Below are positions 2 to 9,349 of a DNA stretch of 35,014 nucleotides, piece after piece; position 1 is the first letter of the stretch; each line of letters starts with the position of its first letter. Where the stretch lies: contig RFHH01000015.1 of NCBI GenBank assembly GCA_003696075.1, forward strand, positions 1-35,014, given 5' to 3'. The notes beneath the pieces were generated by a model that saw nothing but the letters and a program-made list of their open reading frames with translations, had not been told where the DNA came from and did no database searches. Made by a program: the position numbers and the translations under genes. Origin of the DNA: Acidobacteriota bacterium (GTDB lineage Bacteria > Acidobacteriota > Polarisedimenticolia > J045).

Positions 2-1951
2 GAGCCGGACAATCTCGTCCACCGCTTCAACTTCGTCCGGCTGGCCTTCCACTACGGGCGTCTGGCCGAGATCGCACGGGCCCGGCGCGTCGCCGAGGAG
101 ACGCTGGATCGGCCGGCCGAGAGCTGGACCGTCGACCCTCTCGACGACATCTATCCCTGGGACTTCTTCCCGACCCATACGGACTATCGCGCCTACTTCG
201 ACGAGGCCACGCGCATGGTCCAGGGAAACGGAGATCCCGGGCGGCTGGTCCGGCTGATCCTCGCCTCCCTGCACGATTTGCTCGGACTCGCCGGCGGTGA
301 TCTCGACCATCACCGGCGCGCTGTCGAACTCGATCCGGAATTTCCCTTCTTTCGCTGGAACCTCGCTGCGGCGCTGCTCCGCCGCGGCGAGCCGGACGAT
401 CTCGACGAGGCCCAGCGGCTCCTCGAGGACCTGGCCCGGAACACGGTGCTGCTCCGACCGGCCACGCGCGAGCTGGAGGCGCTCGCCGGGCGCGGGCGGG
501 TCGTCCGTCCCCTCGAGGGATTGAAGAGCCGCTGCGAGCGGGCGCCCAAGGGAGGGATCGGGGCGACGCTGGATCTCGAGGGACGCTGCGCCGACCTTCC
601 CGATCTTCCGCGCGTCGCCGCAAAGCTCCCCCCGGCCGCACCGCCCTTCGGACCACCCGCGGCGCCGGCCTCCGTCGAGACGCTGGTCGTGCCGGAGGGT
701 CACGAGCGCATCGACTACGCGGTGACCGCCGTCGTTTCCGTCTGGCGTTCCCGGCGTTTCATCGAGGGTCTGCTCGACGATCTCCTGTCCCAGTCGCTCG
801 GGCCGCGCCTCGAGATCGTTGTCGTCGACAGCGCCTCGCCGGAGGGCGAGGGGCGGATCGTGCTCGACCGTCTCCGGCGCCACCCGAACATCGTCTACCT
901 GCGAACCGACCGGCGCGAGACGTCACACGCCGCCTTCAGCCGGGCTGCGGCGCTCGCCCGGGCGCCCTATCTGGCGCTCGCGAACACCGACGACCGGCAC
1001 CACCCGGAAGCGCTCGAAAGACTGGCCCGCGTGCTCGACGCGAGGCCCGACGTGGGGCTGGTCTACGCCGACTTCTGGGTCACCGTGCGCGAGAACGCGC
1101 GCTTCGACGAAGCTCCGTTCGAGAAGCTCAAGCGCCTCGAGGAGTTCACGCTGTTCGACCTCCTCGCGCACTGCTCCGTCGGACCGCAGCCGATGTGGCG
1201 CAAGGAATTGCACCACCGGCACGGCCTGTTCGACGCCACTCTCGACGTCGCGGGAGACTGGGAGATGTGGCTGCGGTTCGCGCGGGAGGACGTCTTCCTC
1301 CATGTACCCGAGACACTCGGCGTCTACTACTACTCGCCCACGAGCTGCGAGCGCCGCGATCCGCGGCGAGCCAAGCGCGAGAACGAGCACATCCTGCGCG
1401 CGTACGACCCGCTGTGGGCGGAGCAGAACGCCCGCCGGCGGGAAGCTCGGATCGCAGCGCCGCGGCTGGACGAAATCCTGGCGCTGATCGTGCGGGGCGA
1501 TGATCCCGGCCGAGCGGCAGCGAGTGTCGCCGAGCTCCGAAAGGAGCGGCCGCGGCGGCGCGATGTGCGCTTCGCCGTCGTGCGCGCGGACGAAGGGATT
1601 CCCGATGTCCCCGGCGGCCCGCCGGCCGACCCCCCCTCGTGGACGCTCCCGGAGGTGATGTCCGACGGCTGGCCGTGGCGCTACCGGGCGGTCGCGCTGA
1701 TGCCCGCCGGCGCCCGCCTCACCGCACGCCGGCTCGAGGAGCTCGCCGAGCGACTCTTTGCGGGGGAGCGGACCGGGGCCCTGCGCGTCCGGGAAGGCGC
1801 CGGAGAGGTCGTGCTGTTGAGCAGCTCGGCGGTGCTGGACGCGGCCTCCCTGCTGGCGGCGCCGGAGCGGCCGGACGCATGGCTCGACGCCGTCGCCCGC
1901 CGGGGATGGAACGTCGCGGTGTGCGCCGGCGCCGAGACCGGGAACGCCTGA
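2..1951 (+). CDS. TPR-containing family 2 glycosyltransferase (5' partial)
   Basis: The frame is open from the first bases of the window, so the gene starts upstream; 649 residues are visible. The first ~230 residues are helical, with a TPR-like stretch around nt 300-450 (AVELDPEFPFFRWNLAAALL). A GT-A (GT2) catalytic domain follows from about nt 716. It begins with a TAVVSVW strand, then VVVDSASPEGEG and, at nt 983-994, NTDD in place of the usual metal-binding DxD. Downstream are LVYADF and a DWEMWLRF segment typical of polysaccharide GT2 enzymes. The last ~180 residues (from about nt 1420) match nothing I recognise. Its likely role is cytoplasmic transfer of a sugar from a nucleotide donor during surface glycan assembly. 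It is 109 bases upstream of the sugar-nucleotide and phosphoramidate operon and probably serves the same glycan. Acceptor and donor are unknown. Confidence 0.85.
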   Translation, partial: EPDNLVHRFNFVRLAFHYGRLAEIARARRVAEETLDRPAESWTVDPLDDIYPWDFFPTHTDYRAYFDEATRMVQGNGDPGRLVRLILASLHDLLGLAGGDLDHHRRAVELDPEFPFFRWNLAAALLRRGEPDDLDEAQRLLEDLARNTVLLRPATRELEALAGRGRVVRPLEGLKSRCERAPKGGIGATLDLEGRCADLPDLPRVAAKLPPAAPPFGPPAAPASVETLVVPEGHERIDYAVTAVVSVWRSRRFIEGLLDDLLSQSLGPRLEIVVVDSASPEGEGRIVLDRLRRHPNIVYLRTDRRETSHAAFSRAAALARAPYLALANTDDRHHPEALERLARVLDARPDVGLVYADFWVTVRENARFDEAPFEKLKRLEEFTLFDLLAHCSVGPQPMWRKELHHRHGLFDATLDVAGDWEMWLRFAREDVFLHVPETLGVYYYSPTSCERRDPRRAKRENEHILRAYDPLWAEQNARRREARIAAPRLDEILALIVRGDDPGRAAASVAELRKERPRRRDVRFAVVRADEGIPDVPGGPPADPPSWTLPEVMSDGWPWRYRAVALMPAGARLTARRLEELAERLFAGERTGALRVREGAGEVVLLSSSAVLDAASLLAAPERPDAWLDAVARRGWNVAVCAGAETGNA

Positions 1952-2060: not shown

Positions 2061-3047
2061 ATGCGCGTGCTGGTGACCGGAGGCGCCGGCTACGTCGGAA
2101 GCATCCTCGTGGAGCGGCTGCTGCGCGACGGCCACGAGGTCACCGTGGTCGACGCCCTCGTGCACGGGGTCCCTTCCCTCGCCCACGTGGCGTCCGACCC
2201 GCGCTTCGAGTTCGTCTACGGCGATGCGCGTGACGAGCGGGTCGTCCTCCCGCTGGCCCGGCGGGCCGACGCCATCCTTCCGCTGGCCGCGGTCGTCGGC
2301 GCCCCCGCCTGCGACGCCGATCCGTGGCGCGCCCGAACCGTCAACGTCGACGCCATCCGGATGCTCGCCGAGCGCACGTCGCGCGAGCAGCTGATCGTCT
2401 ACCCCACCACCAACAGCGGCTACGGAACGAAGTCGGGCGAGGTCTTCTGCACCGAGGAAACGCCGCTGGAGCCGATTTCCCTCTACGGACGCACCAAGGT
2501 GCAGGCCGAGCGGATCCTGCTCGACCGCGGCGGGGCCATCACGCTGCGTTTGGCGACCGTCTTCGGCATGTCGCCGAGGATGCGGCTCGACCTTCTCGTG
2601 AATCACTTCGTCTGGACGGCCATCACCGAGGGAGCGATCGTCATCTTCGAAAAGGATTTCAAGCGCAACTACGTGCACGTGCGCGACGTGGCCGACTGCT
2701 TCGCGTTCGCGCTCGAGCACGGCGAGGAGATGGCCGGCAGGCCGTACAACGTCGGCCTCGACGACGCCAACTGCTCGAAGGCCGAACTGGCCGAGAAGAT
2801 CCGAGCGCACGTGCCGGGCTTCTACGTCCACTTCGCGGAGTACGGAACCGACCCCGACCGCCGCAACTACATCGTCTCCAACGAGCGCCTGCGGCAGGCC
2901 GGCTTCGAGGCGCGCCGCAGCCTCGACGACGGTATCCGCGAGCTCGTCAAGGGCCTCCGGATGCTCGCAGCCGCTCCTCACCGCAACGCCCCGCCCGTCC
3001 AGGCGCAACGCTTCGGGCGCCCGCAGCTGGAGCCGGCGGCGGTCTGA
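2061..3047 (+). CDS. NAD-dependent sugar-nucleotide epimerase/dehydratase (extended SDR)
   Basis: This is a 328-residue extended short-chain dehydrogenase. The N-terminal Rossmann motif is GGAGYVGS (residues 7-14), and an acidic residue at the end of beta-2 (Asp31) favours NAD over NADP. The active site is the YPTTNS segment (114-119) with Tyr142-xxx-Lys146 (YGRTK). The substrate-domain strand RNYVHVRDVADC is typical of enzymes acting on nucleotide sugars. The ATG follows GAGGAGG by six bases. It lies 13 bases upstream of the HddC-like gene. With the HddC- and GmhB-like neighbours, a plausible job is modifying a GDP-heptose or similar donor (oxidation, C4/C3 epimerisation or dehydration), as SDR enzymes do in the C. 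jejuni capsule locus. The exact substrate cannot be read from the sequence. Confidence 0.88.
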   Translation: MRVLVTGGAGYVGSILVERLLRDGHEVTVVDALVHGVPSLAHVASDPRFEFVYGDARDERVVLPLARRADAILPLAAVVGAPACDADPWRARTVNVDAIRMLAERTSREQLIVYPTTNSGYGTKSGEVFCTEETPLEPISLYGRTKVQAERILLDRGGAITLRLATVFGMSPRMRLDLLVNHFVWTAITEGAIVIFEKDFKRNYVHVRDVADCFAFALEHGEEMAGRPYNVGLDDANCSKAELAEKIRAHVPGFYVHFAEYGTDPDRRNYIVSNERLRQAGFEARRSLDDGIRELVKGLRMLAAAPHRNAPPVQAQRFGRPQLEPAAV

Positions 3048-3060
3048 TCGCGGCGAGCCG

Positions 3061-3801
3061 ATGACCGGGCCCGCCACGTGGCCGCGACGGCTCTCCGAGA
3101 TCCCGGCGCTGGTTCTCGCCGGAGGAGCGGGAACCCGCCTCCGGCCGGCGGTCCCCGACCGGCCGAAGGCGCTGGCCGAGATCGCCGGACGGCCGTTCCT
3201 CGAGCACCTCCTGGAGCGTTTGGCGGCGGAGGGAATCGTCAGGGCGATTCTCTGCACCGGCGTGATGGGCGATCAGGTCGCCCGCTGGGCGGCGCGGTAC
3301 AGCGGACCGGTCGAGCTCGCGCTCTCTCACGAAAGCGAGCCGGCCGGTACCGGGGGCGCCGTCGCGCTCGCCCGGCGGCGGTTCGGTCTCGAACGCACCC
3401 TCGTCCTCAACGGAGACACCTACTTCGAGGCGCCCCTCGCCCCGCTGCTCGCGGCCGCCTCGGCGGCGGGGGCGCCGGGGGCGCTTCTCGCGGTTCGGGT
3501 CCCCGACACCGGACGCTACGGAGCGCTCGAGACCGACGCGGCCGGCCGGGTGCTGCGGTTCGTCGAAAAAGGGCAGCGCGGGCCGGGATTGATCTCGGCA
3601 GGAGCAGCACTGCTCGGCCCAGAGATCCTCGCCGCGATTCCGGACGACCGCCCCGTGTCGCTCGAGGACGAGGTGCTCGCCGCGTGGGCCGGCCGGGGAC
3701 TCGTGGCAGCGGTCGGAGAGGGCCGCTTCGTCGACATCGGCACACCGGAGAGTTATCGCGCGGCCGAAGAGATGTTCGCCGGCACCGGGGGCGTGCGATG
3801 A
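3061..3801 (+). CDS. Sugar-1-phosphate nucleotidyltransferase, HddC-like
   Basis: This 246-residue single-domain NTP transferase has the nucleotide-binding signature GGAGTRL (residues 21-27), RPK (34-36) and the metal-binding NGDT (117-120). Near the C-terminus FVDIGTPESY matches the sugar-phosphate-binding end of this fold. Family knowledge: enzymes of this size and motif set include HddC, the D-glycero-alpha-D-manno-heptose-1-phosphate guanylyltransferase, and RmlA/GCD1-like enzymes. The adjacent GmhB-like phosphatase favours HddC by context. It would make the activated sugar (GDP-heptose) for surface glycan assembly. Its stop overlaps the next start by four bases (ATGA). No HddA kinase or GmhA isomerase is in the window, so the full heptose pathway is not demonstrated here. 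Confidence 0.8.
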   Translation: MTGPATWPRRLSEIPALVLAGGAGTRLRPAVPDRPKALAEIAGRPFLEHLLERLAAEGIVRAILCTGVMGDQVARWAARYSGPVELALSHESEPAGTGGAVALARRRFGLERTLVLNGDTYFEAPLAPLLAAASAAGAPGALLAVRVPDTGRYGALETDAAGRVLRFVEKGQRGPGLISAGAALLGPEILAAIPDDRPVSLEDEVLAAWAGRGLVAAVGEGRFVDIGTPESYRAAEEMFAGTGGVR

Positions 3802-4370
3802 GCGGACCGGTGTTGCTGCTCGACCGCGACGGGACGATCGTCGTGCAGGAGGAGCGTTACCTCACCGAACCGTCACGCCTGCGACTGCTTCCGGGGGCGG
3901 GCGCGGCGCTCGCCCGCCTGCGGCGGGCCGGATACCGCCTCGCGGTGCTGACCAACCAGTCCCCGATCGAACGCGGGCTCCTGACGTGGGAGCGGCTGCG
4001 CGCGATTCACCGCCGGCTCATCGAGGAGCTGGCTCGCCACGGAGCCGAGCTGGACGGCATCTTCGTCTGCCCGCACCGGCCGGAGCGGGGGTGCTCCTGC
4101 CGCAAACCGCAGCCGGGCCTCGTGTGGCAGGCAGCGGCGAAGCTGCGCTTCGACCCGAAAGAGTCCTGGATCATCGGCGACAACGCCTGCGACGTCGAGC
4201 TGGCGCACGCTGTCGGCGCCCGCTCGGTGCTCGTGCTCACCGGCCACGGAGCGGGCCTGCCGGAGGCGGTGCGGGCGCGCGCCGATCTGGTGGTGCCCGA
4301 CCTGGCGGCCGCCGCGGAGCGGATTCAGGCGGAGCTCCGCGCCCCCCGGCGGGAGGAGGTGTTCGCGTGA
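3798..4370 (+). CDS. gmhB: D-glycero-D-manno-heptose 1,7-bisphosphate phosphatase (GmhB-like HAD)
   Basis: This HAD-superfamily phosphatase has 190 residues, close to the E. coli enzyme. The nucleophile motif is Asp9-Arg-Asp11-Gly-Thr13; motif II includes Thr52-Asn53; the zinc loop characteristic of GmhB and the HisB N-terminal domain is C91-x-H93 then C99-x-C101; motif III/IV is Lys103 and Gly-Asp128-Asn. It removes the 7-phosphate of heptose 1,7-bisphosphate, giving the 1-phosphate used by the guanylyl- or adenylyltransferase. The start was chosen at the ATGA overlapping the previous stop. It ends in a GTGA overlap with the glutamine kinase gene. HisB-type histidinol phosphatase is an alternative family reading, but there are no histidine genes here and the locus is glycan-related. 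Confidence 0.85.
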   Translation: MSGPVLLLDRDGTIVVQEERYLTEPSRLRLLPGAGAALARLRRAGYRLAVLTNQSPIERGLLTWERLRAIHRRLIEELARHGAELDGIFVCPHRPERGCSCRKPQPGLVWQAAAKLRFDPKESWIIGDNACDVELAHAVGARSVLVLTGHGAGLPEAVRARADLVVPDLAAAAERIQAELRAPRREEVFA

Positions 4371-6688
4371 GCGTCCTGCTCTCCGGGAAGGCCCGGACGC
4401 TCGAGCGGCTTGCCGGAAAGCTCGAGCACGCGGAGGTGCTGCCGCAGCATCGCTTCAGCGCCGCAGAATGGCGGCGCGGCCGCGAGCGGATTCTGGCGGC
4501 GGTGCTCGCCGAACCGTGGGGCGCGGGGCCGCTCATCGCCCGCAGCAGCGCGCTGGCCGAGGACGGCCGGCGCACCGCCCTGGCCGGCCACTACGCGTCG
4601 GTCGCCGGCGTTCGGGGCAAGGAGGGCCTGGCGGCGGCGATCGACCGCGTGGCGGCGAGCCTCGACGACCCGCAGGGAAGGGACGAGATCTTCGTCCAGC
4701 CCTGGCTCGAGCGGGTCGCGCTCGCCGGCGTGGCCTTCACGCGCGATCCCAACACCGGCGCCGACTACCTGGTCGTCAACTACGACGACAAGAGCGGGAC
4801 GACAGACGCCGTCACCTCCGGACGGAGCAACGAGCTCGAAACCTGGTACCGATTCCGCCGGTCGCCGGTTCCGGCGCCGGAACCGCTGGACCGCGTGGTC
4901 GCGCTGGCTGACGAGCTGATCGAACGACTGGGCGAGGAGGCGCTCGACTTCGAGTTCGCGCTCACGCACGACGGCCGGCTCGTCCTGCTCCAGGTCCGAC
5001 CACTGACCGCTGCGACCGCCGCAGCACGGCCCCCCGGCGAGCAGGCAGCCGTCCTCGCCCGCGTCGCCCGGCGCCTGCTGGAATGGCAGCGACCCCATCC
5101 CTACCTCTACGGTGACCGCACGGTGTTCGGCGTGATGCCGGACTGGAACCCCGCGGAGATCATCGGCATCCGCCCGCGGCCGCTGGCGCTCTCGCTGTAC
5201 CGCGAGTTGGTCACCGACAGCATCTGGGCCTACCAGCGTCACAACTACGGCTACCGCAACCTGCGGAGCTTTCCCCTGCTCGTCGACATCGCCGGCCTTC
5301 CCTATGTGGACGTGAGGGTGTCCTTCAACTCGTTCCTTCCGGCAACGACCGCCCCGGACCTGGCCCGGCGGCTCGTCAACCACTACATCGATCGCCTGGT
5401 GGCGAACCCTGACGAGCACGACAAGGTCGAGTTCGAGATCATCTTCTCCTGCTACACATTCGATCTTCACGAGAGGATGCGGGTCCTCGACGAGGCGGGG
5501 TTCACCGCCGGCGACCGCGAACGGCTCGCCGAGGACCTGAGGGATCTGACGCGGAGAATCATCGACCATCGGAACGGCCTCTGGCTCTCCGACCGGAGGC
5601 GGCTCGACGAGCTGGTCAAGAGGCGCGAGATCATCCTCGAGTCCGACCTCGATCTTCCGGAGAAGATCTTCTGGCTGCTCGAGGATTGCAAGCGATACGG
5701 AACGCTTCCCTTCGCTGGACTCGCACGCGCCGCGTTCATCGCCGTGCAGATGCTGCGCTCCCTCGTGACACTGGGTGTCCTCGACGAGAGCGAGTACGCC
5801 CTGTTCATGGAGAGCGTGGAAACGGTCGGCTCGCGCATGGCCCGCGATCTGGCGACTCTCCCGCGCGCCGCGTTCCTGGCTCGCTACGGGCACCTCCGCC
5901 CCGGCACCTACGACATCCTCTCGCCTCGCTACGACGAGGCCCCGGAGCGGTACCTCTGTCACACCGCCCCGCCGCCGCGCGCGACGAAGCGGTTCACCCT
6001 CGATCTCGGCCAGCTCGGGCGCATCGAGAAGCTTCTGAGCGAACACGGGCTCGGCAAGGACGTGCTCGGCCTGTTCGAGTTCATCCGGGGCGCGATCGAG
6101 GGTCGCGAATACGCCAAATTCGTCTTCACCCGCAGCCTCAGCGACGCGCTCGTGCTCCTCGGACGCCTCGCGGAGCACTGCGGGCTCGACCTCGAGGACG
6201 CCTCCTTCGTGACGATCCAGGCGGTGCAGAAAGCGGTGTCTTCGTGCGAAGACATCGCCGAAGCGCTGCGGGCATCGGCCGAACATGGCCGGCGCCGCTA
6301 CGAGATGACGCGGCAAATCGTCCTGCCGCCGCTGATCGTCGATCCGCGCGAGGTCTGGGATTTTCACCTCCCGCCCTCGGAGCCGAACTTCATCACCCAG
6401 AAGAGAGCGGCCGGGCCGGTGCGTTTCGCCGACGCTCCTCCCTCGGAGCTGCGCGGGGCGATCCTCCTCCTCCCGCGCGCCGATCCCGGGTTCGACTGGA
6501 TCTTCACCCATGGGATCGCCGGCTTCGTCACCGCGTACGGCGGAATCAACTCGCACATGGCGATCCGCGCCGGCGAGCTGGGTATCCCGGCCGTCGTCGG
6601 GGCCGGCGAAAAGCTCTACCGCCGATATGCCGCCGCCCGGGAGCTCGAGATCGACGCTTCGGCGCGACAGGTGAGGATCCTGAGATGA
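4367..6688 (+). CDS. L-glutamine kinase of phosphoramidate biosynthesis (Cj1418-type, PEP-synthase fold)
   Basis: The protein has 773 residues. Residues ~50-215 are an ATP-grasp (PPDK_N) domain with IARSSALAEDG (58-67), FTRDPNTGADYLVV and a closing LLQVRPL. A large middle region (~240-690) carries the block MPDWNPAEIIG (257-267) that I associate with the glutamine-kinase group rather than true PEP synthases. Residues ~695-773 are the swivelling phosphohistidine domain, with GGINSHMAIRAGELGIPAVVG placing the phospho-histidine at His730. There is no C-terminal PEP/pyruvate TIM barrel, so it is not a PEP synthase or PPDK. Known chemistry of Cj1418: ATP phosphorylates the amide nitrogen of L-glutamine, forming a P-N bond. 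The GTG start overlaps the gmhB stop and follows GGGAGGAGGT (4351-4360). The three genes downstream supply the rest of the pathway. Confidence 0.83.
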   Translation: MSVLLSGKARTLERLAGKLEHAEVLPQHRFSAAEWRRGRERILAAVLAEPWGAGPLIARSSALAEDGRRTALAGHYASVAGVRGKEGLAAAIDRVAASLDDPQGRDEIFVQPWLERVALAGVAFTRDPNTGADYLVVNYDDKSGTTDAVTSGRSNELETWYRFRRSPVPAPEPLDRVVALADELIERLGEEALDFEFALTHDGRLVLLQVRPLTAATAAARPPGEQAAVLARVARRLLEWQRPHPYLYGDRTVFGVMPDWNPAEIIGIRPRPLALSLYRELVTDSIWAYQRHNYGYRNLRSFPLLVDIAGLPYVDVRVSFNSFLPATTAPDLARRLVNHYIDRLVANPDEHDKVEFEIIFSCYTFDLHERMRVLDEAGFTAGDRERLAEDLRDLTRRIIDHRNGLWLSDRRRLDELVKRREIILESDLDLPEKIFWLLEDCKRYGTLPFAGLARAAFIAVQMLRSLVTLGVLDESEYALFMESVETVGSRMARDLATLPRAAFLARYGHLRPGTYDILSPRYDEAPERYLCHTAPPPRATKRFTLDLGQLGRIEKLLSEHGLGKDVLGLFEFIRGAIEGREYAKFVFTRSLSDALVLLGRLAEHCGLDLEDASFVTIQAVQKAVSSCEDIAEALRASAEHGRRRYEMTRQIVLPPLIVDPREVWDFHLPPSEPNFITQKRAAGPVRFADAPPSELRGAILLLPRADPGFDWIFTHGIAGFVTAYGGINSHMAIRAGELGIPAVVGAGEKLYRRYAAARELEIDASARQVRILR

Positions 6689-7806
6689 AGCTGGTGGGCC
6701 TGACCCAGCGGATCGACGCCGACGCGCGTGGCGAGAGGCGTGACGCTCTCGAGCGGCGCTGGCACCGTTTTCTCGCCCGCTGCGGTCTCGCCGGAGTGCC
6801 TCTGCCCAACGACGCTGCGGCGGCGGAGGCGCTTCTCGACCGGCTTCCGCTCGCGGGAATCATCCTGACCGGGGGGAACGACCTCGCCGGGGCCGGCGGC
6901 GACGCTCCCGAGCGCGATGCTCTCGAGCGCATACTGATCGAGCGCGCCGAGCGCGAGCGCTGGCCGGTTCTCGGCGTCTGCCGCGGCCTTCAACTCATCG
7001 CCGTTCACCACGGCGCCCGGATCGAGCGTGTCGCCGGTCACGCGGGAACGCGGCATCTCCTGGACGGCCACGGCGTCCCGGCCGAGGTCAATAGCTACCA
7101 CGACTGGGGTGTCCTGGAGTCCCCGCCGCAACTCCTCGTCCGCGCACGCTCTCCCGACGGGGTGATCGAGGCGATCGAGACGCGCGACGGGCGGCTCGCG
7201 GCGATCCAGTGGCATCCCGAGCGAGAGCCATCACCGGCTGCCGCGGACCGGCATCTCCTAGACAGCCTGTTCGGCGGACCGGGACGCCCCGGCGCCTCCG
7301 AAGGCACCGTCTACTGGATCACGGGGCTCTCCGGCGCCGGCAAGACGACGCTCGGCCGCGCGCTGGTGGATCGCCTGCGCGCCGCCGGGCGGCCGGCGCT
7401 CCTGCTCGACGGCGACTCACTGCGGGAGGCCATCGCCGCCGATCTCGGACACGACATGGCCGATCGCCATCGCTCCGCGATGCGCAACGCGAGGCTGTGC
7501 CGGCTGCTCGCCTCCCAGGGCGCCGACGTCGTCTGCTGCACGATCTCGATGTTCGAGGACGTGCGGAGCTGGAACCGCGATCACATCCCCCGCTACCGCG
7601 AGATCTACCTGCGGGCGTCGCTCGCGTTGCTGGAGGCCCGCGATCCCAAGGGAATCTACGCCGCAGCCCGCCGCGGCGAGATCCGGCACGTGTGGGGCGT
7701 CGATCTGCCATGGGAGGAACCGCGCCGTCCCGATCTGGTGATCGACGTCGAGGATCGGTTCGACCCCGACACGCTGGCCGGGCATATCCTCGGAGAACTT
7801 CGATGA
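6685..7806 (+). CDS. Fused gamma-glutamyl-CDP-amidate hydrolase / cytidine diphosphoramidate kinase
   Basis: This 373-residue protein is a two-domain fusion. Residues 1-~197 are a class I glutamine-amidotransferase-like hydrolase (peptidase C26): TGGND 62-66, nucleophile Cys99 in GVCRGLQ, and His177/Glu179 in QWHPE. Residues ~205-373 are an APS-kinase-fold P-loop kinase: Walker A GLSGAGKTT (214-222), LDGD 241-244, RDPKGIY. The segment CCTISMF...WNR..IP.Y.EIYLR replaces the SPY..R...R of true APS kinases and resembles Cj1415. In C. jejuni the separate proteins Cj1417 (releases glutamate from CDP-L-glutamine, leaving cytidine diphosphoramidate) and Cj1415 (phosphorylates its ribose 3'-OH) do these steps. 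Here one chain appears to do both. ATGA overlaps both flanking genes. No ATP sulfurylase is nearby, which argues against sulfate activation. Confidence 0.82.
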   Translation: MKLVGLTQRIDADARGERRDALERRWHRFLARCGLAGVPLPNDAAAAEALLDRLPLAGIILTGGNDLAGAGGDAPERDALERILIERAERERWPVLGVCRGLQLIAVHHGARIERVAGHAGTRHLLDGHGVPAEVNSYHDWGVLESPPQLLVRARSPDGVIEAIETRDGRLAAIQWHPEREPSPAAADRHLLDSLFGGPGRPGASEGTVYWITGLSGAGKTTLGRALVDRLRAAGRPALLLDGDSLREAIAADLGHDMADRHRSAMRNARLCRLLASQGADVVCCTISMFEDVRSWNRDHIPRYREIYLRASLALLEARDPKGIYAAARRGEIRHVWGVDLPWEEPRRPDLVIDVEDRFDPDTLAGHILGELR

Positions 7807-8573
7807 GACGCGGGACGCGCGGGCTGATTCTTGCGGCGGGGCGGGGTTCGCGTCTGGGCCGGCTGACGTCGCGCCGCCCCAAGGCGCTGGTGCCGCTCGC
7901 CGGAAAACCGCTGATCGCCCACCAGCTCGACTCGTTTCGCGAGGCCGGCGTGCACCCCGTCGCCGTCGTGAGCGGCTATCTCGGCGGACAGCTGCGTGAC
8001 CTGGGGGTCGACCTGTTCGAGAATCCCGAATGGTCGCGAACGCAGATGGTCCGCTCGCTCGCCTGCGCCGCGCCTTGGCTGCGTGAAGGCCCGACGGTGA
8101 TCAGCTACGGCGATGTCATCTGCGCGCCGTCCGTGCTGCGCCGGCTGGCCGAGTGTGAAGAAGAGATCGCGGTCGCCTGCGATCTCGAGTGGCGACGGCT
8201 GTGGGAGGCACGATTCGACGATCCGCTGGCGGACGCCGAAACGTTCCGCTTCGCTCCCGACGGCTCCGTCGCCGAAATCGGCCACCGCCCGCGCCGAATC
8301 GCGGAGATCGAGGCCCAGTACATGGGGCTTTTCCGCCTCACGCCCGAGGGATGGCGGCGAATCGAGCAGCGGCTCGCGAGATGGGGCCGCCGCGAGACCG
8401 ACGGCCTCGATGTCACCACGCTGCTCGATCGCCTGATCGAGGACGATGTCCGCGTCGCCGCGGTTCCGGTGCGCGGCGGCTGGATCGAGGTCGATCGGCC
8501 GGGCGATCTCGAGCTTTACGAACGGTGGATCCGGGAGGGGAAGTCGTTCCTGTCGGCCTGCACCAGGAGATGA
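7803..8573 (+). CDS. CTP:phosphoglutamine cytidylyltransferase (Cj1416-type nucleotidyltransferase)
   Basis: This 256-residue nucleotidyltransferase has the NTP-binding signature LAAGRGSRL (10-18) with Lys27 in RPKAL and the metal-site motif SYGD (101-104). The remainder (SRTQMVRSL, DPLADAETF, EAQYMGLFRL) resembles the LicC/phosphocholine-cytidylyltransferase-like subgroup that contains Cj1416 rather than hexose-1-phosphate enzymes. In C. jejuni the enzyme couples L-glutamine phosphate with CTP to give CDP-L-glutamine and pyrophosphate. Its position directly after the kinase and the hydrolase/kinase fusion, overlapping the latter by ATGA, supports that role. Family and context carry this call; nucleotide specificity is not provable by eye. 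A generic phosphosugar or phosphocholine cytidylyltransferase would be the alternative. Confidence 0.78.
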   Translation: MRRGTRGLILAAGRGSRLGRLTSRRPKALVPLAGKPLIAHQLDSFREAGVHPVAVVSGYLGGQLRDLGVDLFENPEWSRTQMVRSLACAAPWLREGPTVISYGDVICAPSVLRRLAECEEEIAVACDLEWRRLWEARFDDPLADAETFRFAPDGSVAEIGHRPRRIAEIEAQYMGLFRLTPEGWRRIEQRLARWGRRETDGLDVTTLLDRLIEDDVRVAAVPVRGGWIEVDRPGDLELYERWIREGKSFLSACTRR

Positions 8574-8575
8574 CG

Positions 8576-9349
8576 ATGGCCAGACCGAGCGGCGATTTCA
8601 CGACCCTGGCGCGTGCTTACGCGCAAAGCCGTCCGGGTTACTCCGAGCGCGTCCTGGAAGCCCTCATCCGGTTCGTCTCGGCGGAGCGACCGGTCCGGGC
8701 GGTGGCCGACATCGGCGCGGGGACGGGCATCTTCAGCCGCATGCTCGCGCGGCACGGCCTGGACGTGACGGCTGTCGAGCCGAACGACGCGATGCGGAGG
8801 GAGGGCATCGCGACGTCCGCCGGCGTCCCGATCCACTGGCACAGCGGCCGCGCCGAGCGGACCGGGCTTCCGGATCGGTGCTTCGACTGGGTGACGGTCG
8901 CCTCGGCTTTCCACTGGGTCGAGTTGCCGGCGGGTCTGATCGAGATTCACCGCATCCTTCGCCCCGGGGGTTACTTGACCGTGCTGTGGAACCCGCGGGA
9001 CATCGACGGGCACCCCCTGCACGAACGGATCGAAGCGGTGATCGAGGAGATCGTGCCGGATCTTCGCCGCGTTTCGTCCGGTTCACGGCGTCACGCGGCC
9101 GACTGGGAGAGCGTGCTCGTTTCGACCGGGCACTTCAGTGATCCGATCCTGTTCGAGGCGCCGCACGAGGAGCGGATGTCCCGGGAACGCTACATGACTG
9201 CGTGGCGCTCCGTGTGCGATATCCAGGAGCAGGCGGGTCCCGAGCGATTCGAGGAGATCCTGCGGCGTATCGCCGAAATCGTCGAAGCGCACGAGGAAAT
9301 CGTCGTCCCCTACCGGACGCGCGCGTGGACCGTGCGCCGTTGCAGTTGA
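8576..9349 (+). CDS. SAM-dependent methyltransferase (class I), candidate for phosphoramidate or glycan O-methylation
   Basis: This 257-residue class I methyltransferase (Methyltransf_11-like) has motif I VADIGAGTGIFS, the acidic end of beta-2 in AVEPNDAMR, and the later strand LRPGGYLTVLWN. The N-terminal FTTLARAYAQSRPGYSE is typical of small-molecule methyltransferases in this group. Two in-frame ATGs are possible, at 8570 (overlapping the previous stop) and 8576; I prefer 8576 because AGGAG (8565-8569) sits six bases before it and directly abuts 8570. In C. jejuni two methyltransferase genes (Cj1419, Cj1420) adjoin the phosphoramidate genes, so this is a reasonable candidate for methylating the phosphoramidate or a precursor. 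Substrate is inferred from position only. It is the last gene of the tightly packed operon. Confidence 0.78.
   Translation: MARPSGDFTTLARAYAQSRPGYSERVLEALIRFVSAERPVRAVADIGAGTGIFSRMLARHGLDVTAVEPNDAMRREGIATSAGVPIHWHSGRAERTGLPDRCFDWVTVASAFHWVELPAGLIEIHRILRPGGYLTVLWNPRDIDGHPLHERIEAVIEEIVPDLRRVSSGSRRHAADWESVLVSTGHFSDPILFEAPHEERMSRERYMTAWRSVCDIQEQAGPERFEEILRRIAEIVEAHEEIVVPYRTRAWTVRRCS

Follow-up and report, generated by a model that had tools for sequence, protein, structure and literature searches.

Most descriptions of P-N bonds in natural glycans come from Campylobacter, and the glutamine kinase was still regarded as specific to C. jejuni in a review of 2022 (PMC9561416). In this species, the enzymes Cj1415-Cj1418 convert glutamine, adenosine triphosphate (ATP) and cytidine triphosphate (CTP) into 3'-phospho-CDP-phosphoramidate (CDP, cytidine diphosphate), which has been termed the likely donor; no function has been assigned to Cj1419 or Cj1420 (PMC11800397). 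Among the papers searched, which covered few of the subscription papers, the only such cluster outside Campylobacter was the O-methyl phosphoramidate cluster of the Cobalt Borg, with a predicted phosphoglutamine cytidylyltransferase and its partners in a glycoconjugate region (PMC12660748); wider prior knowledge is possible. Here we analyzed a stretch of 35,014 nucleotides from an Acidobacteriota bacterium (the window), which is an entire contig, RFHH01000015.1, of a draft assembly of 231 contigs (3.29 Mb, 98.6% complete). Genes at 4367-9349 of the window probably build the activated phosphoramidate 3'-phospho-CDP-amidate from glutamine, ATP and CTP, as Cj1415-Cj1418 do. An earlier note on this DNA had proposed four consecutive genes for the four C. 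jejuni functions, followed by a methyltransferase gene. All five functions were recognized, in the gene order kinase, hydrolase-kinase fusion, nucleotidyltransferase and methyltransferase, but the hydrolase and the second kinase were not separate genes, as both lay in one open reading frame, 6685-7806. The note had also predicted that such genes would be hidden by automatic annotation, and the same misleading names are found on the C. jejuni genes, with Cj1415c annotated as "adenylylsulfate kinase" and Cj1418c as "PEP synthase/PPDK" (phosphoenolpyruvate synthase/pyruvate phosphate dikinase) (PMC9112162).

The assignment of the predicted product of 4367-6688 as an L-glutamine kinase-like protein (EC 2.7.3.13 type, Cj1418) was well supported. 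The protein scored 884 bits against NF004508 (E 6e-266, cut-off 501) and at most 60 bits against the PEP synthase models, the best of which has a cut-off of 883. This family score placed it in NF004508/PRK05849 and not among the PEP synthases, the group that the earlier note had named as the one that would overturn its proposal; no mention of the name PRK05849 was found in the papers searched. The protein consisted of an ATP-grasp domain, a substrate domain and a C-terminal phospho-His domain. PPDK_N covered residues 54-99 and the PEP-utilizers phospho-His mobile domain covered residues 697-765 of 773, with no space behind it for a PEP/pyruvate barrel. The catalytic His730 (codon 6554-6556) lay in this swivel domain, and the MPDWNPAEIIG block occupied residues 257-267 (positions 5135-5167), both as the note had read them. 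The AlphaFold model, which was built from 28 sequences and had a mean predicted local distance difference test (pLDDT) score of 85, matched rifampin phosphotransferase across residues 6-773 (Z 18.4, 528 residues aligned); the root-mean-square deviation was large (9.4) because the domains can swivel.

Relatives were collected by scanning one genome per species with the kinase alignment, and the best 80 of at least 548 confirmed stretches were kept. Together with three further Acidobacteriota loci, they made up 83 comparison loci chosen by the kinase alone. His730 was kept in 83/83 relatives where the position was covered. Beside the kinase, the hydrolase was found in 82 of the 83 loci, the nucleotidyltransferase in 81, the APS-kinase-like protein (APS, adenylyl sulfate) in 72 and the methyltransferase in 65, many of these contigs being short. 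For the 38 loci with long flanks, a set that includes the window, the corresponding numbers were 37, 37, 35 and 32. The commonest order was APS-kinase-like gene, methyltransferase, kinase, hydrolase and nucleotidyltransferase (27 loci).

The hydrolase domain carried the class I amidotransferase triad that the note had listed, Cys99 (codon 6979-6981), His177 (7213-7215) and Glu179 (7219-7221), which was invariant in 83/83 hydrolases. Its best model was NF045546, the curated gamma-glutamyl-CDP-amidate hydrolase, ahead of PuuD and GMP synthase, and this model matched all 29 relative hydrolases scanned. The product of 7803-8573 had the NTP transferase fold and a gene adjoining the kinase in the loci counted above, and we propose it as the phosphoglutamine cytidylyltransferase (Cj1416 type). 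No cytidylyltransferase-specific family model was found for 7803-8573. The note had called this protein LicC-like; the LicC-type CTP:phosphocholine cytidylyltransferase 1jyk was among its solved-structure matches (E 1.6e-9), but its best sequence matches were general sugar-1-phosphate nucleotidyltransferases. The expected methyltransferase was present, and members of its subfamily in the 65 other loci scored 115-262 bits. From its neighbours, it may act on the phosphoramidate (or a sugar).

The families, motifs and architecture of the proteins, together with the company of their genes, lead us to infer the following pathway. The kinase would pass a phosphate of ATP via His730 onto the amide nitrogen of glutamine, and the nucleotidyltransferase would couple the resulting phosphoglutamine to CTP. 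The hydrolase domain, with Cys99, would then take off glutamate to leave CDP-amidate, and the APS-kinase-like domain of the same polypeptide would add a 3'-phosphate to CDP-amidate, in the way that APS kinase converts APS to 3'-phosphoadenylyl sulfate (PAPS). Finally, a glycan hydroxyl would receive the H2N-P(O)O- group, which the methyltransferase would then methylate; the transfer, the methylation and a heptose-type glycan target are weaker proposals drawn from the neighbouring genes.

The destination is probably a surface glycan. The earlier note had inferred that the bacterium decorates its surface glycan with phosphoramidate, but no phosphoramidate transferase was found on the contig. It is rather unlikely, but worth weighing, that the activated phosphoramidate made by the same enzymes ends up on a secreted small molecule, lipid or flagellin glycan and not on a capsule or O-antigen-like surface polysaccharide. 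This would agree with the contig, cut at base 1, on which neither a polysaccharide export gene nor a phosphoramidate transferase was recognized, and with the flgK/flgL-like genes that the cluster adjoins in several Pseudomonas relatives. On the other hand, the window has genes for a glycosyltransferase, an epimerase, an HddC-like protein and a GmhB-like protein directly upstream, and the last of these genes overlaps the kinase gene by 4 bases, which argues for the surface glycan.

The fusion of the hydrolase and the APS-kinase-like domain was seen only in the window and in 0/83 other loci (84 compared). The two domains shared one frame of 373 residues with no stop codon at the junction. Since the fusion would join two consecutive steps, the product of one domain would be the substrate of the next. 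We consider it very improbable that an assembly or sequencing error merged two ordinary adjacent genes. Such an error would account for a fusion with a single occurrence, and that in a fragmented draft genome; the cluster was absent from all 40 further genomes of the class, so that no comparison was available there. However, the codon-position G+C pattern stayed regular through the junction, no ATG, GTG or TTG was present there to start a separate kinase gene, and the same domain was fused differently in 16 other loci. In these loci, mostly of Acidobacteriota, the APS-kinase-like domain formed an in-frame N-terminal extension of the glutamine kinase. With the two fusion types (16 loci and the window), the misnamed kinase is therefore tied to two different pathway enzymes.

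The C-terminal domain of the fusion, our proposed CDP-amidate 3'-kinase, was not an ordinary APS kinase. It matched Pfam APS_kinase (3e-38) and NF004041 (167 bits, cut-off 127), and its score against apsK TIGR00455 (136.2 bits) fell slightly under the cut-off of 138.7; apsK was above the cut-off in 42/60 Acidobacteriota genomes searched, nearly all far above it. In a maximum-likelihood tree of 95 domains, 73 cluster kinases, the window included, were split from 22 APS kinases (97/80, 98% of bootstrap trees), a split that is not fully independent because the cluster rows had been found through their similarity to the window domain. The domain thus had the APS-kinase fold and fell outside the APS kinase group, by which the note's own test against APS kinases came out in its favour. 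The domain also carried the ISMF..WNR-type motif that the note had pointed out; cluster kinases mostly had TIS.F and WNR where APS kinases have ISP[FYH], and seven cluster kinases were without both motifs. Besides this domain, the genome (98.6% complete) yielded no APS_kinase-fold gene, and the search for ATP sulfurylase gave no PF01747 match and no CysN above the cut-off. The kinase would therefore lack APS as a substrate, unless an ATP sulfurylase is encoded in the part of the genome that is missing. PAPS synthesis in this organism is unlikely on two grounds, the grouping of the cluster kinases apart from APS kinases and the negative search for ATP sulfurylase. A sulfation module, in which the domain makes PAPS and the other proteins are an unrelated PEP synthase-like protein, peptidase C26 and sugar nucleotidyltransferase, would fit the Pfam name, the sulfotransferase-fold neighbours in relatives and the one genome of the phylum (L031) where such a kinase adjoins a likely ATP sulfurylase gene, but it is scarcely credible in view of the separate tree group, the lack of detected ATP sulfurylase and the constant glutamine-kinase-like and CDP-amidate-hydrolase-like partners.

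WNR was rejected as a sole diagnostic motif, since the L031 kinase beside the likely ATP sulfurylase carries it and seven cluster kinases have neither motif. At L031 3094-6059, this WNR-bearing APS-kinase-like gene stands between a sulfotransferase-like gene and the likely ATP sulfurylase gene, the latter named from sequence. In the tree, the kinase adjoins the cluster kinases, and it may indicate the origin of the CDP-amidate kinase.

The assignment of the four functions was well supported by the family scores, which for NF004508, APS_kinase and NTP_transf_3 lay far outside what chance would give, by the tree and by the absence of a detected ATP sulfurylase, and the note's reading of the enzymes stood in this respect. 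Several points weigh against it. The pathway assignment rests on sequence, and the likeness to Cj1415-Cj1418 is one of family and motif; that Cj1418 is a member of NF004508 and Cj1415 a member of NF004041 is our assumption. The hydrolase domain of the window scored 95 bits against NF045546, under the equivalog cut-off of 250, and we therefore claim only that it would work like Cj1417, not that it is a filed member of the family. No phosphoramidate from Acidobacteriota was found in the papers searched, and the lack of a recognized transferase on the truncated contig counts here too. In addition, the GmhB-like gene had no match in the other cluster loci and the heptose-type genes did not recur; heptose genes were accordingly rejected as a fixed component of the system and are taken as context only.

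The genes and domains are collected in Table 1. All genes from base 2 through 9349 were co-oriented, and from the GmhB-like gene onward there were four overlaps of 4 bases (4367/4370, 6685/6688, 7803/7806 and 8570/8573). The glycan-type region stops near 9.6 kb, because a POT transporter gene and housekeeping genes (PBP2, MreD, MreC, MreB, a SurA-like chaperone, UvrA and FolD) come next; it may continue beyond the left contig end.

Table 1. Genes and domains of the phosphoramidate locus in the window, with selected features of related loci
Feature	Locus	Positions	Strand	Basis
Family 2 glycosyltransferase-domain protein (context)	window	2-1951	+	Glycos_transf_2 3.5e-16; open frame truncated by contig start
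NAD-dependent sugar epimerase/dehydratase (context)	window	2061-3047	+	Epimerase 8.8e-33
Sugar-1-phosphate nucleotidyltransferase, HddC/ManC-like (context)	window	3061-3801	+	NTP_transferase 4.5e-26; NF049965 HddC 104 bits, cut-off 300
GmhB-like heptose bisphosphate phosphatase (context)	window	3798-4370	+	NF006506 166 bits, cut-off 178
L-glutamine kinase-like protein, 773 aa, GTG start	window	4367-6688	+	NF004508; PPDK_N and PEP-utilizers; AlphaFold model
Fused bifunctional hydrolase and CDP-amidate-kinase-like protein, 373 aa	window	6685-7806	+	Uninterrupted single open reading frame
Gamma-glutamyl-CDP-amidate hydrolase-like N-terminal domain	window	6685-7284	+	NF045546 best family; Peptidase_C26; triad
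APS-kinase-like C-terminal domain, proposed CDP-amidate 3'-kinase	window	7285-7806	+	NF004041; tree; GLSGAGKTT, ISMF, WNR
Nucleotidyltransferase, proposed phosphoglutamine cytidylyltransferase	window	7803-8573	+	NTP_transf_3 1e-21; recurrent neighbour
S-adenosylmethionine-dependent methyltransferase, proposed phosphoramidate (or sugar) O-methyltransferase	window	8570-9349	+	Methyltransf_11; recurrent subfamily
APS-kinase-like domain fused to glutamine kinase	L041, L043, L044, L046, L047, L049, L051, L052, L058, L066, L067, L072, L074, L076, L078, L094			
Sulfotransferase-fold neighbour (example)	L036	7251-8636		
Sulfotransferase-fold neighbour (example)	L045	8218-9477		
Sulfotransferase-fold neighbour (example)	L078	14519-15859		
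CysQ-like gene (example)	L063	12890-13705		
CysQ-like gene (example)	L102	12887-13702		
CysQ-like gene (example)	L113	12662-13705		

The related loci also offered a candidate for the transfer step, which has not been reconstituted. A profile made from cluster neighbours found a match adjoining the core genes in 25/83 loci, nearly always within 200 bases; the seed of the profile was drawn from some of the same loci, and a few weak matches (21-38 bits) are perhaps due to chance. All 13 members of this neighbour family that were scanned matched Pfam Sulfotransfer_3, and the structure model of one of them (mean pLDDT 84) had sulfotransferases as its best matches, many solved with 3'-phosphoadenosine 5'-phosphate (top Z 16.1, 235 residues). 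The adjacency was well above background, because Sulfotransfer_3 was found in only 2/14 control genomes. The proposed donor resembles PAPS in its construction, and it is therefore natural to propose these neighbours as phosphoramidate transferases with a sulfotransferase fold. Moreover, a CysQ/inositol-monophosphatase-like gene lay inside or beside the core in about nine loci, and its product possibly recycles the 3'-phosphonucleotide by-product. On the window contig, neither a sulfotransferase-fold neighbour gene (profile on the window open reading frames) nor a CysQ-like gene was found. Elsewhere in the assembly there were three PF13469 matches, which were not taken as transferase candidates; only one of them matched the neighbour profile, weakly (11.6 bits), and the genes around it resembled general metabolism. 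Neighbours matching the CDP-glycerol glycerophosphotransferase family in some Pseudomonas loci suggest an alternative kind of transferase. We give about even credence to a pan-bacterial system resembling that of PAPS, in which four enzymes would make 3'-phospho-CDP-amidate, sulfotransferase-fold phosphoramidotransferases would transfer the group and a CysQ-like phosphatase would recycle the by-product, with two consecutive steps fused in the window.

In two Paenibacillus loci, L054 7113-10001 and L071 2799-5567, the kinase gene was closely preceded by one that encodes a fusion of an AMP-binding domain with the sulfotransferase-like domain. In the Pseudomonas-type loci L055, L056, L060, L065 and L070, flgK/flgL-like open reading frames, named by eye, closely preceded the cluster, an arrangement like that of flagellin glycosylation islands.

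The hosts of the related loci came from about eleven phyla by record titles, including Acidobacteriota, Pseudomonas, Paenibacillus, Azospirillum and Treponema. The note's view of a non-Campylobacter case was borne out in that the cluster stands in an Acidobacteriota genome, but this is not a lone case, as the gene set is widespread. The distribution is patchy, since the kinase was absent from all 40 further genomes of the window's class, and horizontal transfer is a likely reason. No C. jejuni locus was among the best 80 kinase loci, and none was found in plasmid or phage sequences. The matched stretch of the Treponema copy of the kinase (L089 10001-12331) was interrupted by a single stop codon, pointing to a pseudogene, a sequencing error or recoding. 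A full-length kinase with 32% identity was encoded at 664-2988 of MT837632.1 (H15), a 9.5 kb Bacteriophage sp. record from human faeces, and would be either phage cargo or misfiled bacterial DNA. The capacity to make phosphoramidate thus appears to be widespread across bacteria, hidden behind names like PEP synthase and adenylyl-sulfate kinase, and the gene company offers enzymes for two steps left open in the 2025 C. jejuni literature, the methyltransferase and the transfer from the likely donor.

Among known systems, rifampin phosphotransferase (RPH; 5fbu, 5hv1) is the closest solved structure to the kinase of the window, with the same three-part layout, a C-terminal phospho-His domain and no barrel, but it acts on another substrate and is about 20% identical over the structurally aligned residues. 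The APS kinase CysC has the fold and the P-loop of the window domain and likewise phosphorylates a nucleotide-activated group at the 3' position, whereas the window domain differs in its tree group and motifs and lies in a genome where no ATP sulfurylase was found. The Cobalt Borg cluster and the window both place a predicted phosphoglutamine cytidylyltransferase and its partners outside Campylobacter; the former is a structure-based prediction on an archaeal extrachromosomal element and carries a fusion with PEP mutase, whereas the window carries the hydrolase-kinase fusion. The O-methyl phosphoramidate pathway of C. jejuni (PMC11800397, PMC3907429) has the same four functions by family and motif and the same pattern of mis-annotation, and a methyltransferase gene and heptose-type genes are its neighbours too. 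No counterpart of Cj1421/Cj1422 was recognized on the window contig, their sequences not having been compared. In contrast to C. jejuni, the window belongs to a GC-rich member of the Acidobacteriota, is described here from its sequence, and has the hydrolase and the proposed 3'-kinase fused in one polypeptide.

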